The translations under genes were made by a program, and so were the position numbers. DNA of 64,000 nucleotides from Serinicoccus profundi (GTDB lineage: Bacteria > Actinomycetota > Actinomycetes > Actinomycetales > Dermatophilaceae), in NCBI RefSeq assembly GCF_008001015.1, contig NZ_CP042862.1, forward strand, positions 1,798,001 through 1,862,000, written 5' to 3'. This document shows positions 17,811-23,393 of this stretch, piece after piece. The notes under the pieces are model-generated. The model saw only the letters and a program-made list of their open reading frames with translations, was not told where the DNA came from and searched no databases. Numbering within the stretch: the stretch's first letter is position 1; each line of letters opens with the position of its first letter.

Positions 17811-19166
17811 ATGCGTGTGAAGACGCACCTGAGGAGCGCAGCCGCACTGTCGGCGCTCGCCCTGCTGGCCGCCTGCGGCGACGCCGAGGAGCCGCAGACC
17901 GACAGCGAGGCCTCCGCCGAGGACACCCCCGCCGAGGATGCCGAGGCAGAGGAGACGGAGTCCGCCGACGACACCATGGAGAGCGAGGAGCCCGCGGCCG
18001 GCGGTGACGGGAACACCTCCGAGACCTTCACCTTCGGCTACGTGCTCCCGGAGACCGGCCAGCTGGCCTTCCTCGGCCCGCCCCAGATCGAGGCCCTCGG
18101 CCTGGCCATCGAGGACATCAACGCCGCGGGCGGCGTCCTCGGCAACGAGGTCCCCGCGCCGATCGCCGGTGACGAGGCCGGCCAGGAGGCCGCCGCCCAG
18201 CAGGCCGCCGACCGCATCCTCTCCGAGCAGCCCAGCGCCATCGTGGGCGCTGCGGCCTCCGGCATGTCCCTGGCCATCGTCGACCGGGTCACCGGCGCCA
18301 ACGTCATGCAGTGCTCCGGCTCCAACACGGCGCCGACCTTCACCGACTACGAGGACGACGGGCTCTACATCCGCACGGCGCCCTCGGACGCGCTGCAGGG
18401 ACCGGTGCTCGCCAACACCATCGTCAACGACGGCTACAGCAATGTCGCCATCGTCGCCCGTGCCGACGACTACGGCTCGGGCCTGGCCGAGGCCACGGCC
18501 ACCGCCCTGGAGAACGCCGGGGCGACCGTGTCCCTCAACGAGACCTACGACCCGCTGGCGCGCGAGTTCAACGCCGTCGTGTCGTCGGTGGAGGCCGCCG
18601 AGCCGGACGCCGTGGTCGTCATCGCCTTCGAGGAGGGCGCGCAGATTCTCCAGGGGATGTTCGAGGCCGGCCTCACGCCTGACGCGGTGGGTGTCTACGG
18701 CGCCGACGGTCTGCGCTCCGCCGACCTCGGCAGCATCGTCAACGAGTCCGACCCGGGCGTCATCGCCGGGATGAAGGGCACCGCCCCGGCCTCGGCCGAC
18801 AACCCCGACTTCATCACGAAGCTGGAGGAGTTCGCGCCCGACCTCGAGGAGACGCAGTTCGCGCCGCAGGTCTACGACTGCGCCGTCACCATGGCGCTCG
18901 CCGCCGAGGTCGCCGGCTCGGTCAACGCCGCCGACTTCAAGGCCGAGGTCAACGGCGTCACCAGCGAGGGCACCGAGTGCACCTCCTTCGAGGAGTGCAA
19001 GGGCCTCATCGAGGACGGCGAGGACATCGACTACAACGGCGCCAGCGGTCCGTTGGACTTCACCGAGGCGGGCGAGCCGGGGACGGCCACCATCGAGGTC
19101 TACGAGTTCGACGACGCCGGTGACCTGCAGTCGGTGGAGACGGTCGAGGCCAACCCTGTGGAGTAG
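17811..19166 (+). CDS. livK: Branched-chain amino-acid-type ABC transporter substrate-binding lipoprotein
   Basis: 451 aa periplasmic-binding-protein type I family. Signal peptide ends in the lipobox LLAAC with Cys22 as lipid anchor. Residues 23-65 are a strongly acidic Glu/Asp/Ser linker that probably spans the cell wall. The binding domain begins with FTFGYVLPETGQLAFLG. RBS GAGAGGTGA is well placed. The binding pocket sequence fits LivK-type proteins, but the true ligand could be amino acid, amide or urea. Its permease and ATPase genes (livHMGF) lie just downstream but on the opposite strand, so the system is made from two convergent transcripts. Confidence 0.9.
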   Translation: MRVKTHLRSAAALSALALLAACGDAEEPQTDSEASAEDTPAEDAEAEETESADDTMESEEPAAGGDGNTSETFTFGYVLPETGQLAFLGPPQIEALGLAIEDINAAGGVLGNEVPAPIAGDEAGQEAAAQQAADRILSEQPSAIVGAAASGMSLAIVDRVTGANVMQCSGSNTAPTFTDYEDDGLYIRTAPSDALQGPVLANTIVNDGYSNVAIVARADDYGSGLAEATATALENAGATVSLNETYDPLAREFNAVVSSVEAAEPDAVVVIAFEEGAQILQGMFEAGLTPDAVGVYGADGLRSADLGSIVNESDPGVIAGMKGTAPASADNPDFITKLEEFAPDLEETQFAPQVYDCAVTMALAAEVAGSVNAADFKAEVNGVTSEGTECTSFEECKGLIEDGEDIDYNGASGPLDFTEAGEPGTATIEVYEFDDAGDLQSVETVEANPVE

Positions 19167-19289: not shown

Positions 19290-20039
19290 TCACTCCTGGA
19301 TGCGTGCCAGGGTGCCGAGATAGAGCTCGATGACCTTCGGGTCGGTGGCCAGCTCCGCGCCGGTGCCGGTGTAGGCGTCCTGGCCCTGGTCGAGGACGTA
19401 GGCCCGGTCGGAGATGTCGAGGCACTGGCGGGCGTTCTGCTCGACCATGAGCACCGACACCCCTGCCTCGTTGATCCTCGACACGGCCTCGAAGACCGAG
19501 TCCTGCATGAGGGGCGACAGCCCGGCCGACGGCTCGTCGAGGAAGAGCACGTGCGGACCGGTCATCAGGGCGCGTCCCATAGCGACGACCTGCCGCTCCC
19601 CACCGGACAGCGACCCGGCGCGCTGGGCCCGGCGGTCGGCGAGCAGGGGGTAGAGGTCGCTGACCTCGCGGAAGCGCTCGGCATACTCCTTGGGCCGGAG
19701 GTAGAGCCCCATCTGGAGGTTCTCCTCGACCGTGAGGGAGGGGAAGACGTTGTTGTTCTGCGGGACGTAGCCCAGCCCGTCGGTGACCAGCTTGTGGGCA
19801 GGGCGGGAGGTGATGTCGGTGCCCTGCAGCATGACCTTGCCGGAGCGGACCGGGACCAGCCCGAACATCGCCTTGATGAGGGTGGACTTGCCGGCACCGT
19901 TGGGCCCGATGATGCCGACCAGCTCCCCTGTCCGCACCTCGACCGAGCACCCGCGCAGGATGTCGACGTCGGGGATGTAGCCGGCCACCAGCTCCTCGGT
20001 CCACAGGACCCGCTCGCCGGTGCTCGCGTGCTCGTTCAC
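19290..20039 (-). CDS. livF: Branched-chain amino-acid ABC transporter ATP-binding protein LivF
   Basis: 249 aa ATPase. Walker A GPNGAGKST, signature LSGGERQ, Walker B VLFLDEPSAGL, H-loop in VLMVEQNARQ, where the switch His is replaced by Gln; EQN is usual in LivF. GTG start overlaps the livG stop by 4 bases. Last gene of livHMGF. Confidence 0.94.
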   Translation of the reverse strand: MNEHASTGERVLWTEELVAGYIPDVDILRGCSVEVRTGELVGIIGPNGAGKSTLIKAMFGLVPVRSGKVMLQGTDITSRPAHKLVTDGLGYVPQNNNVFPSLTVEENLQMGLYLRPKEYAERFREVSDLYPLLADRRAQRAGSLSGGERQVVAMGRALMTGPHVLFLDEPSAGLSPLMQDSVFEAVSRINEAGVSVLMVEQNARQCLDISDRAYVLDQGQDAYTGTGAELATDPKVIELYLGTLARIQE

Positions 20040-20962
20040 GACTGCTCCCCGTCCTTGAGTGAGCGGTGGGTGCCGAGGTAGGCGTCGATGACCGCGGCAT
20101 CCTTGCGGATGTCATCAGGGCGTCCCTCGGCGATGACCTTGCCCTGCGCGAAGCAGACGACCCAGTCGCTGATCGACATGATGACGTCCATGTCGTGCTC
20201 GACGAGGACGATCGTCATACCGTCGTCCCGCAGGGCCTCGATATGCCCCAGCAGGGACTGGGTCAGGGCGGGGTTGACCCCGGCCATCGGCTCGTCGAGC
20301 AGGATCATCGCCGGCTGGACCATGAGGGCCCGGGCCATCTCCAGCAGCTTGCGCTGCCCGCCGGACATGGTGCCGGCGAACTCGTCGCGCATGTGGGTGA
20401 GGTTGAACCTGCCGAGCAGCTCCTCGGCCCGGCTGCGGATCCCGGCCTCCTGACCGGCCCACGACGGGCGCAGCAGCGAGGTGAGCAGGCGTTCACCGCG
20501 CTGGCCGGTGGCGCCCAGCATGAGGTTCTCCAGGCTGGTCAGGCGGGTCAGGGCCTTGGTCAGCTGGAAGGTCCGGACCATGCCCTGCCGGGCGATGCGG
20601 TAGGACGGGGCACCACTGATGTCCTTGCCCTCGAACGACCACTGGCCGCTGTCGGGCTTGTCGAAGCCGGTGATGAGGTTGAAGAAGGTCGACTTGCCCG
20701 CGCCGTTCGGCCCGATGAGCGCCGTGATGGTCCCCCGCTGGATCTCCAGGTGCTCGACCTCGACTGCACGAACCCCACCGAAGTGCCGCGACATGTCGTC
20801 GGCCACGAGGATGGCGTCGGGCTTGGCGACGCCGGGGACGTTGGCCACCCCGGCCAGCGCCGCGGCCGCGCGCCGGGCACCGACCGAGAGGGTCTTCTCC
20901 TGCTCCCGCTCGTGCACCGCCTCGCGCTGGGCGAGCAGGTCCTCTTGCGTGTCATCGGACAT
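20036..20962 (-). CDS. livG: Branched-chain amino-acid ABC transporter ATP-binding protein LivG
   Basis: 308 aa. Walker A GPNGAGKST, signature MSGGQRKLLEMARAL, Walker B ILLDEPMAGVN, H-loop VEHDMD. The C-terminal helix typical of LivG follows. It has an N-terminal extension of about 50 residues (MSDDTQEDLLAQ...), longer than usual, of unknown role. Overlaps livM by 11 bases. Confidence 0.94.
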   Translation of the reverse strand: MSDDTQEDLLAQREAVHEREQEKTLSVGARRAAAALAGVANVPGVAKPDAILVADDMSRHFGGVRAVEVEHLEIQRGTITALIGPNGAGKSTFFNLITGFDKPDSGQWSFEGKDISGAPSYRIARQGMVRTFQLTKALTRLTSLENLMLGATGQRGERLLTSLLRPSWAGQEAGIRSRAEELLGRFNLTHMRDEFAGTMSGGQRKLLEMARALMVQPAMILLDEPMAGVNPALTQSLLGHIEALRDDGMTIVLVEHDMDVIMSISDWVVCFAQGKVIAEGRPDDIRKDAAVIDAYLGTHRSLKDGEQS

Positions 20963-21941
20963 CGAGACGCAGCTCCTTGTGGTTGCCGATGAGCCCGGAC
21001 GGTCGGAACATCATGAGCATCATGAGACCGAGCCCGACCGCGGCGAACCGGACGGCGCCGATGTCGCTGGGCGCGAGGATGCTCGTGGGGATCCACCCGG
21101 CCGACATGGCACTCCGGAGGAAGGCGTCCAGGAAGGTCAGGAGGAACCAGAAGACGATCGACCCGAGGATCGGCCCCGCCACGCGGCTGGCTCCCCCGAG
21201 GATCGTGATCGTCCAGAGGTAGAAGGTGATGATGGGGATGAAGGCGTCCGGGGTGATGGCCTGGCTGTTGATGGCGAGCAGCGAACCGGCCAGCGCACCG
21301 AGCACTCCCCCGAGGACCAGGGCCTGCATCTTGTAGGCGAAGACGTTCTTGCCCAGGCTGCGGGCGGCGTCCTCGTCCTCGCGGACGGCCCTCAGGACGC
21401 GACCCCAGGGGCTGTGGATGAGCAGCCACACGAGCGCCGCCGCGAGCAGCGTCGCGCCCCAGGCCACCGTCATGAGCCACAGGGCACGGTCGCTGAAGCT
21501 CAGCGGACCCAGCTCGAGCGGGCCGGTGTAGGGGTTGACGGCGTAGAACCCTCCGGCGAACTGGACCAGGCCGAAGACCCCACCGGTGACCGGCTCGGCG
21601 AAGGAGGACCGGAAGACGTAACGCAGCACCTCGGCGGCGGCGATCGTCGCGATGGCGAGGTAGTCACCCCGCAGCCGGAGGGTGGGGATGCCGAGGATGA
21701 GCGCCAGCACGACGGCGCACGCCATCCCGACGAGCACGCCCGCCCAGAGCGGCAGGTCGAGCGACAGCACCGAGATGGCCGTGCCGTAGGCACCGACGAG
21801 CATGAACCCGACCTGGCCGAAGTTGAGCAGACCGGTGTAGCCGAAGTGGATGTTGAGCCCGATCGCGGCCAGCGCGTAGATCGCGGCCTCGGGGCCGAGC
21901 GCGCCGCGGACGGCGACCGAGAGCACTGCCAGGAAGTCCAT
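20952..21941 (-). CDS. livM: Branched-chain amino-acid ABC transporter permease LivM
   Basis: 329 aa, eight or more membrane segments. Family motifs: YTGLLNFGQVGFMLVGAYG near the N-terminus and the cytoplasmic loop GRVLRAVREDEDAARSLGKN that contacts the ATPases. Start ATG 21941, 11 bases after livH. Homologous to LivH along the core. Confidence 0.94.
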   Translation of the reverse strand: MDFLAVLSVAVRGALGPEAAIYALAAIGLNIHFGYTGLLNFGQVGFMLVGAYGTAISVLSLDLPLWAGVLVGMACAVVLALILGIPTLRLRGDYLAIATIAAAEVLRYVFRSSFAEPVTGGVFGLVQFAGGFYAVNPYTGPLELGPLSFSDRALWLMTVAWGATLLAAALVWLLIHSPWGRVLRAVREDEDAARSLGKNVFAYKMQALVLGGVLGALAGSLLAINSQAITPDAFIPIITFYLWTITILGGASRVAGPILGSIVFWFLLTFLDAFLRSAMSAGWIPTSILAPSDIGAVRFAAVGLGLMMLMMFRPSGLIGNHKELRLDVR

Positions 21942-21952
21942 CGTTCCTCTCC

Positions 21953-23272
21953 TCAGCCGACCCGCTCGCGTCGGCCCAGGATGCCCTGGGGCCGGACGAG
22001 GAGCACGATGATCATGACGAGCAGCGCCCACATGTAGGACAACGAGGCCGGGAACCACAGGGTGGACAGCTGCGAGACCAGGCCGATGACGAGCGAGCCG
22101 AGCATCGCGCCGTACGCGCTGCCGAGCCCGCCGAGGATGACACCGGCGAACATGAGCAGGAGCAGCTCGAAGCCCATCTCGCTGTAGATCGCCTGGGTCA
22201 GCCCGAAGAACACTCCGCCGATCGCGGCCAGCGCGCCGCCGAGCACCCAGACGACGAGGATGACGCGCTGCACGTCGATGCCGGAGGCTTCCGCGAGGTC
22301 CTTGTTGTCGTTGACCGCACGCATCGCGGTACCGATCCGCGTGCGCTGCAGCACGACGGCGACGGCGATCATGATGGCGAAGGCCAGCACGGTGATGATG
22401 AGGTCGCGCGGGGTGATCCTGACCGGCCCGAGGGTCCAGGCCGTCTGCAGGGAGTACTCGTCGTACTGCTGGCGGCGGGACCCGAAGACGATGAGGACGA
22501 GGTGTCGGAGCAGCAGGGAGAGCCCGATCGCGACGATGAACATCTGGATCAGCCCGGCGCCCCGTCGGCGCAGCGGACGCCACAGGCCGACCTCGAAGCC
22601 TCCGGCGACCGCACCACCGACGGCCATGGCGAGGACCGCGGCGAGGACGATGGGCAGGTTGCCCGGTGCCGTGCTGAGGAAGTAGGCCGCGACGGCGCCG
22701 ATGGTGACGAACTCGCCGTGGGCGAAGTTGATGAGTTTCGTCGTCCCGAACACCAGGGACAGGCCCACGGCCGTGATGGCGATGATCGCGCCGAACTTCA
22801 CGCCGTCGACGACGAGCTGCAGCACCCGGCCCACGGGGATGCCGCCAGCGGCCTCCTCCACCTCGCCGGTCCCGAGCTGGAAGATCACCCCCTGCGAGGC
22901 TCCTGGCCGCACCGTCACCCCGTCGAGGACCTCGCCCCCCTCTGCTCGGGGGGCCACCCCCTCGGGAAGGCCGGAGACGTCGAGCGTCACGGTGTAGGAC
23001 CCGGGGCCGGGCAGCGGGACCGCCCACTTCCCCTCCGCGTCGGTCGTCGCGGTGCCCACCTCGGAGCCGTCCTGGCTGACGGTGATCGTGACCCCCTCCA
23101 GGGGTTCGCGGTCGGGGTCACGCAGGGTCCCCTGGACCATCTCCGCCGCCTCCTCCGCGGCGCCGACCACCGCCGTCGGGGCCACGTGGACGGGCACGGC
23201 TCCTGCCGGGGCTGCGGCCAGCAGCATCCAGAGAAAGATGGCAGCCAAGGCTGCCCACAGGCGGGGGGTCAC
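21953..23272 (-). CDS. livH: Branched-chain amino-acid ABC permease LivH with secreted N-terminal domain
   Basis: 439 aa. Start GTG 23272 has a strong AAGGAG six bases upstream. Residues 1-25 look like a cleavable signal peptide (LWAALAAIFLWMLLAAAPAGA). Residues about 46-133 (GTLRDPDREPLEGVTITV..., with TTDAEGKWAVPLPGPGSYTV) have the pattern of a carboxypeptidase-regulatory-like or SdrD-B-like beta-sandwich, placed outside the membrane. The permease core begins near residue 148, with the LivH motif FGTTKLINFAHGEFVTIGA and the coupling loop IGTAMRAVNDNKDLAEASGI. Plain LivH is about 290-310 aa, so the extra domain is real. It may meet the LivK lipoprotein or the cell wall. First gene of the operon. 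Confidence 0.92.
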   Translation of the reverse strand: MTPRLWAALAAIFLWMLLAAAPAGAVPVHVAPTAVVGAAEEAAEMVQGTLRDPDREPLEGVTITVSQDGSEVGTATTDAEGKWAVPLPGPGSYTVTLDVSGLPEGVAPRAEGGEVLDGVTVRPGASQGVIFQLGTGEVEEAAGGIPVGRVLQLVVDGVKFGAIIAITAVGLSLVFGTTKLINFAHGEFVTIGAVAAYFLSTAPGNLPIVLAAVLAMAVGGAVAGGFEVGLWRPLRRRGAGLIQMFIVAIGLSLLLRHLVLIVFGSRRQQYDEYSLQTAWTLGPVRITPRDLIITVLAFAIMIAVAVVLQRTRIGTAMRAVNDNKDLAEASGIDVQRVILVVWVLGGALAAIGGVFFGLTQAIYSEMGFELLLLMFAGVILGGLGSAYGAMLGSLVIGLVSQLSTLWFPASLSYMWALLVMIIVLLVRPQGILGRRERVG

Positions 23273-23393
23273 GGGATCTCCTTCGATGCGGACACGGGGA
23301 GTAAACCACAGGTCGACCCCCCTGCACAGCACCACCTCGCGTCGGTGCCGAGCGGTCGGGCCAGCGGTCGTGCGGACGCCGCCTGCGCGCCGT

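Follow-up and report, generated by a model that had tools for sequence, protein, structure and literature searches.

Introduction

Some proteins of the urea permease family UrtB bear an N-terminal extension. Two beta-sandwich families are also relevant here: CnaB-type isopeptide domains are defined by conserved Lys and Asn/Asp residues that form an isopeptide bond, and transthyretin-like folds can bind small ligands. In the maltose importer, a periplasmic region of the permease, MalF-P2, contacts the binding protein MalE (PMC3150292; see also titles cited in PMC3328499). We found no paper on a fusion of LivH with a CarboxypepD_reg domain in the literature searched, with most subscription journals outside its coverage.

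Here we analyze such a fusion in Serinicoccus profundi, encoded in a 64,000-nucleotide stretch of contig NZ_CP042862.1 (the window, whose numbering is used throughout). It is built from known families and is present in many public genomes. An earlier note, made from the letters of this DNA, had read the gene as a LivH permease behind a secreted beta-sandwich domain that might serve as a docking site for the lipoprotein LivK or for cell-wall material.

Results

Gene start and permease core

Translated on the minus strand, positions 21953-23272 yield 439 residues with no internal stop; the features of the gene and its neighbors are collected in Table 1. The earlier note had left room for a start near residue 145, in which case the upstream stretch would not be part of LivH at all. 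GTG codons do occur at residues 138, 147 and 150, but none of these internal starts is preceded by a Shine-Dalgarno-like site, while the GTG at 23272 has one; this argument from the nucleotide sequence supports a start at residue 1 and speaks against one near residue 145. Among 167 homologous loci, 103 show a Shine-Dalgarno-like word before a candidate start located upstream of the signal peptide, and 16 show one before a start between domain and core. Misannotation is further opposed by the single open frame that domain and core share in the homologs examined (the Streptomyces type excepted) and by the low dN/dS of the domain (see below), and we give it next to no chance.

Table 1. Features of the livH gene and its neighbors (positions in the window).
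Feature	Position	Strand	Evidence or remark
livK, substrate-binding lipoprotein, points towards livF	17811..19166	+	Peripla_BP_6 116.9 bits; lipobox LAAC, acidic linker
livF, ATP-binding subunit	19290..20039	-	ABC_tran 115.4 bits
livG, ATP-binding subunit	20036..20962	-	ABC_tran 107.9 bits, BCA_ABC_TP_C 41.3 bits
livM, second permease subunit	20952..21956	-	BPD_transp_2 162.1 bits
livH, LivH-type permease core (BPD_transp_2), residues 147-439 + stop	21953..22834	-	159.3 bits; BtuC-type fold
livH, acidic linker joining domain to core, residues 136-146	22835..22867	-	length varies among homologs
livH, transthyretin/CnaB-like beta-sandwich (Pfam CarboxypepD_reg), residues 45-135, predicted extracytoplasmic	22868..23140	-	Pfam, AlphaFold, fold comparison; dN/dS 0.19
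livH, family-specific loop LDxx(T/S)LPxG, residues 97-105, best candidate functional site	22958..22984	-	conservation
livH, disordered stretch, residues 26-44	23141..23197	-	pLDDT <50 at residues 21-42; dN/dS 0.91 within genus
livH, signal peptide, residues 1-25	23198..23272	-	helix 4-19 in AlphaFold model; predicted cleavage after AGA
Shine-Dalgarno-like AAGGAG	23278..23283	-	sequence AAGGAGATCCCGTG; 5 bases upstream of GTG start at 23272

The LivH-type core proposed behind the N-terminal domain is confirmed by its Pfam match (BPD_transp_2, PF02653; cut-off 26.8 bits, 460-aa ORF) and by its predicted model, which superposes on BtuC with Z 15.5 (VIA-align). A narrower identity was rejected, because the core scores below the curated NCBIfam cut-offs both of the E. 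coli-type LivH equivalog (NF008011, 117 bits versus 379) and of UrtB (TIGR03409, 156.8-158.3 bits versus 250.3), the latter being its best match in that collection. No solved structure matched the core well by sequence (phmmer, E up to 1): among the 7 rows returned, the best is an SdrD chain that matches the domain only, and the others are weak. A separate variation of the core occurs in family f23 (L185, L193, L208 and similar loci), where a long insertion with hydrophobic stretches follows the second core helix; it is absent from the window LivH.

Operon and LivK

The gene lies in the setting expected of a LivH-type permease: livM, livG and livF follow it on its own strand, livK comes next on the opposite strand, and this order recurs in relatives. 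Wherever contigs extend far enough around the 80 named loci, the genes run livH-livM-livG-livF, and polA, a gene for a thioesterase, a PdtaR-like regulator gene and pyk are often close by. A convergent livK follows livF in 56 of the 59 loci where this region is visible, and 51 of 54 livK ORFs carry a lipobox, so that the permease almost always has a lipoprotein partner nearby.

The binding protein itself varies. In the window, the linker between its lipobox and binding domain (17877-18020, plus strand) is long, very acidic and of low complexity. Four loci (L119, L120, L161, L168) have three or four adjacent livK-like genes downstream of livF, which suggests duplication of the binding protein for a single transporter, and a livK match broken into two parts at L104, L106, L107, L108 and further loci of Geodermatophilaceae suggests that the protein has acquired an insertion there.

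Signal peptide and topology

The signal peptide that the earlier note placed at residues 1-25 is a family feature: a hydrophobic segment lies upstream of the domain in all 168 distinct domain-bearing homologs, preceded by six residues with a mean net charge of +2.0, and an AxA/VxA site follows it in 167 of them, versus 125 expected from shuffles (duplicates of other loci or truncated loci, namely L003, L086, L087, L155, L095, L143 and L091, are omitted from this survey and from that of linker length). Among 169 aligned proteins (L003, L086 and L087 omitted), mean K/R counts are 3.0 in loop 234-243, 3.5 in loop 311-333 and 3.5 at the C-terminus, while the linker before the first core helix averages 0.6 K/R and 3.8 D/E. 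By the positive-inside rule, K/R-rich cytoplasmic loops and C-terminus together with an acidic N-terminal linker put the domain outside. Signal peptide and loop charges thus agree with the proposed extracytoplasmic N-terminus, and we infer from them that the CarboxypepD_reg domain of the window LivH lies outside the cytoplasmic membrane. The signal peptide may instead be an uncleaved signal anchor; the domain is outside either way. The linker between domain and core has length quartiles of 10, 13 and 40 residues, and its longest value (221) is inflated, since the core match starts late where an insertion is present.

Family and fold of the N-terminal domain

Pfam places a CarboxypepD_reg domain (PF13620) at residues 46-133, just where the earlier note had seen one: the match scores 45.0 bits on the 460-aa ORF (cut-off 32.3) and 48.5 bits on the first 143 residues alone (E 1.1e-12), far beyond chance. 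Its second candidate family, SdrD_B (PF17210), did not hold up, with 22.3 bits on the ORF and 25.2 on residues 1-143 against a cut-off of 29.7. Each protein contains exactly one such domain, and no further copy occurs in the loci examined.

AlphaFold predicts the beta-sandwich that had been proposed. With 44 aligned homologs, the window LivH is modeled at a mean pLDDT of 82.7 as a helix at 4-19, disorder at 21-42, strands within 45-135 (pLDDT blocks mostly 74-87), a weak linker at 136-143 and a helical core. The domain modeled alone (108 rows, that is, the window's own stretch and 107 of the 151 that remained after 173 were thinned) gives the same strands at a mean pLDDT of 79.3. The predicted domain superposes in VIA-align on SdrD B (10ps, Z 11.9), CnaB2 (8bdw, Z 10.4), the transthyretin-like domain of carboxypeptidase D (5aq0, Z 10.3, rmsd 2.0 over 81 residues, 30% identity) and transthyretin (Z about 9.3-9.6), and Foldseek with the domain alone returns similar fold neighbors (E about 2e-4 to 1e-2).

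Conservation across the 169 aligned rows falls largely on positions of the fold (G48, G60, G81, W83, P88, G91, Y93). Neither Lys nor Asn is the majority residue at any of positions 46-135, which rules out an isopeptide-forming CnaB domain; likewise, no catalytic or metal-binding residue set stands out in these rows, and no conserved aromatic or basic patch was seen in the domain. Its surface is poorly conserved, with no conserved patch in the 169 rows beyond one short loop, LDxxTLPxG, where weighted conservation is 74% for L97, 86% for D98, 89% for T/S at 101 and 98% for P103. The domain is strongly acidic: its net charge averages -9.6 across homologs.

Distribution and history of the fusion

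The domain-plus-core architecture proved widespread in Actinomycetota, as surveyed in genomes of the phylum, plasmid records and named loci; an oddity confined to this genome is ruled out by the class and phylum surveys, the named loci and the tree. Among 149 genomes of the family, the domain is present in every one of the 19 ortholog rows, our own included, that have an E-value of 1e-70 or below. The other family matches, mostly unexamined, have E 1e-44 or weaker and nearly all start past the domain, which indicates that the gene is patchy within the family; in the same genus, one of nine genomes (G104) lacks the gene. In 296 genomes of the class, the domain is present in 113 of the 114 rows besides our own that reach E 1e-61, a cut chosen after the list was seen. 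These 113 comprise 28 of the 29 rows L036-L064, all 25 rows examined whose match began after residue 100, L090, and 59 rows for which the sole evidence is an alignment running across the domain. The single domain-less row is L042; the next in the list, L184 (1.8e-61), has no domain and is placed outside the clade described below.

In the phylum survey (296 genomes), L042, G510 and five rows of family f56 (50-54% identity) match most strongly among those that lack the domain. Its absence was read directly in G510 and four of the f56 rows, the match in G636 beginning at a contig edge. By our own profile, 79 of the 80 named loci carry the domain (the exception is Streptomyces sp. NBC_01481), although the query used to rank these loci contained the domain and favors loci that have it; the domain-bearing ones span Actinomycetes, Acidimicrobiia and Nitriliruptorales. 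Among 1002 matching plasmid records, seven reach a query coverage of 80% or more. Two records labelled Acidobacteria and Thermoanaerobacterales (L094, L138) hold the actinobacterial locus, with 83% identity between the Pyk of L094 and that of the window, and the labels are probably wrong. The domain is an old feature of this gene, shared by most actinobacteria. The earlier statement that ordinary LivH has nothing in front of its core is correct for the paralogs and outgroups tested, including the other full-length LivH-type match in this genome (L002, 33% identity), but fails for the orthologs studied here, which as a rule carry the domain.

A tree of the core, with 85 sequences hand-picked from the available LivH rows, unites 60 domain-bearing sequences and two Streptomyces-type rows in one clade with support 100/100, and the f56 group falls outside it. 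The domain label requires two changes on this tree, versus a mean of 21.9 in 500 shuffles, and as we read the tree they are one gain and one loss, the latter in Streptomyces. Our computation shows that the architecture became established a single time, at an early point in the history of Actinomycetota, and has persisted since. In the two Streptomyces-type loci (L042, L127) the domain is lost and a signal peptide directly before the core is retained; L127, the one with enough flank, keeps livM, livG, livF and livK. Estimated from six sequences of the genus, dN/dS is 0.11 in the core and 0.19 in the domain, compared with 0.55 in the signal peptide and 0.91 in the stretch ahead of the domain. 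Purifying selection acts on the domain, and its value of 0.19 shows that it is not a loose spacer.

Discussion

We propose that the domain is an accessory module at the permease mouth that most likely contacts or holds LivK. This is the single most likely role, with a probability of roughly 0.38, and the contact is suggested by place and precedent only. The signal peptide would start export of the domain and fix an N-out topology, leaving the transthyretin-like domain outside the membrane, tethered by the acidic linker to the first core helix. The flexible linker could let the domain swing over the permease mouth and contact or hold lipid-anchored LivK nearby, much as MalF-P2 contacts MalE, with the conserved LDxxTLPxG loop as the putative contact site. 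The analogy with MalF-P2 makes docking plausible. A bolder form of this proposal, in which a phylum-wide external arm captures or gates the lipoprotein binding protein, an invention of a BtuC-fold importer that parallels MalF-P2 and was lost only in Streptomyces, seems to us rather unlikely.

The specific docking role for LivK advanced in the earlier note was not borne out: the domain does not co-diverge with LivK beyond the other subunits, its surface has no conserved patch apart from the loop, and L127 keeps livK without the domain. In the 59 of 80 loci that have all parts and a convergent LivK, the distance correlation of domain and LivK, controlled for the other subunits, gives a partial r of -0.011 (permutation p 0.507) in what is a weak test, and that of core and LivK is weakly positive (0.175, p 0.044). 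Docking is also opposed by the acidity of both the domain and the window's LivK linker, by conservation that outside LDxxTLPxG falls mostly on fold positions, and by the absence of the domain from both Streptomyces-type loci; the variable length of the linker argues against rigid positioning. Of the 50 inter-domain pairs ranked highest by mutual information between domain and core, 40 involved predicted outer loops and none a cytoplasmic loop; variable non-loop core columns used as a control gave an equal excess, and the signal was dropped as an effect of variability.

Several of these observations fit another role, which we rank close behind LivK contact and consider possible but somewhat less probable: signal peptide and domain could form a biogenesis module that serves mainly the export of the N-terminus and the N-out topology, folding or stability of LivH, with no direct part in transport or LivK binding. 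Conservation of fold residues and not of the surface, the missing co-divergence with LivK and the signal peptide retained by the domain-less Streptomyces-type rows are all consistent with such a module. Against it, domain-less LivH paralogs and outgroups manage without one, the LDxxTLPxG loop is conserved beyond what the fold explains, and the tree shows just one loss of the domain.

The other half of the earlier docking idea, a site for cell-wall material, gained nothing that points there in particular. As an envelope anchor, a CnaB/SdrD-B-like domain would bind peptidoglycan, an envelope glycan or an envelope protein and fix the transporter in the wall. The solved fold neighbors do include wall proteins and pilins (SdrD, UafA, CnaB2, SpaA), but transthyretin and the carboxypeptidase D domain match nearly as well, so the fold says little about function, and a single, acidic domain with no conserved aromatic or basic patch seen makes such anchoring improbable. 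Still less probable in our judgement is a sensor of substrate or signal that binds a small ligand and tunes transport: the conserved loop and the known capacity of transthyretin-like folds for small ligands speak for it, and the lack of a conserved catalytic or metal-binding set among the 169 rows speaks against it.

If the domain acts in transport, a core amino-acid-type importer has a phylum-wide extra extracellular element that is missing from textbook LivH models and that trimming of start sites or domains in annotation would hide. If it is only an aid to folding or export, it nonetheless shows cleanly how a domain gained one time can be retained throughout a phylum. The natural domain-less LivH of Streptomyces offers a ready comparison and makes the role directly testable.

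It is instructive to set this protein beside its known counterparts. With LivH-type permeases (PF02653) it has in common the core at 147-439, the operon with livM, livG and livF, and a neighboring livK, while differing in the signal peptide and CarboxypepD_reg domain in front and in scoring below the LivH equivalog cut-off; UrtB (TIGR03409), the NCBIfam family closest to the core, is likewise matched only below its curated cut-off. The domain belongs by above-cut-off sequence and common fold with the CarboxypepD_reg/transthyretin-like domains (PF13620; carboxypeptidase D, 5aq0), yet it sits on a permease rather than on a peptidase or adhesin and has the LDxxTLPxG loop. It has the beta-sandwich fold of the CnaB and SdrD B-type domains of Gram-positive surface proteins, but not the conserved isopeptide Lys/Asn, and SdrD_B stays under its Pfam cut-off. 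The proposed likeness to MalF-P2 of the E. coli maltose importer is that of an extracytoplasmic folded permease region contacting a binding protein (PMC3150292); MalF-P2 is residues 91-271 inside MalF, in an importer of a different type, whereas the domain described here is N-terminal, hangs on a flexible linker and may contact LivK.
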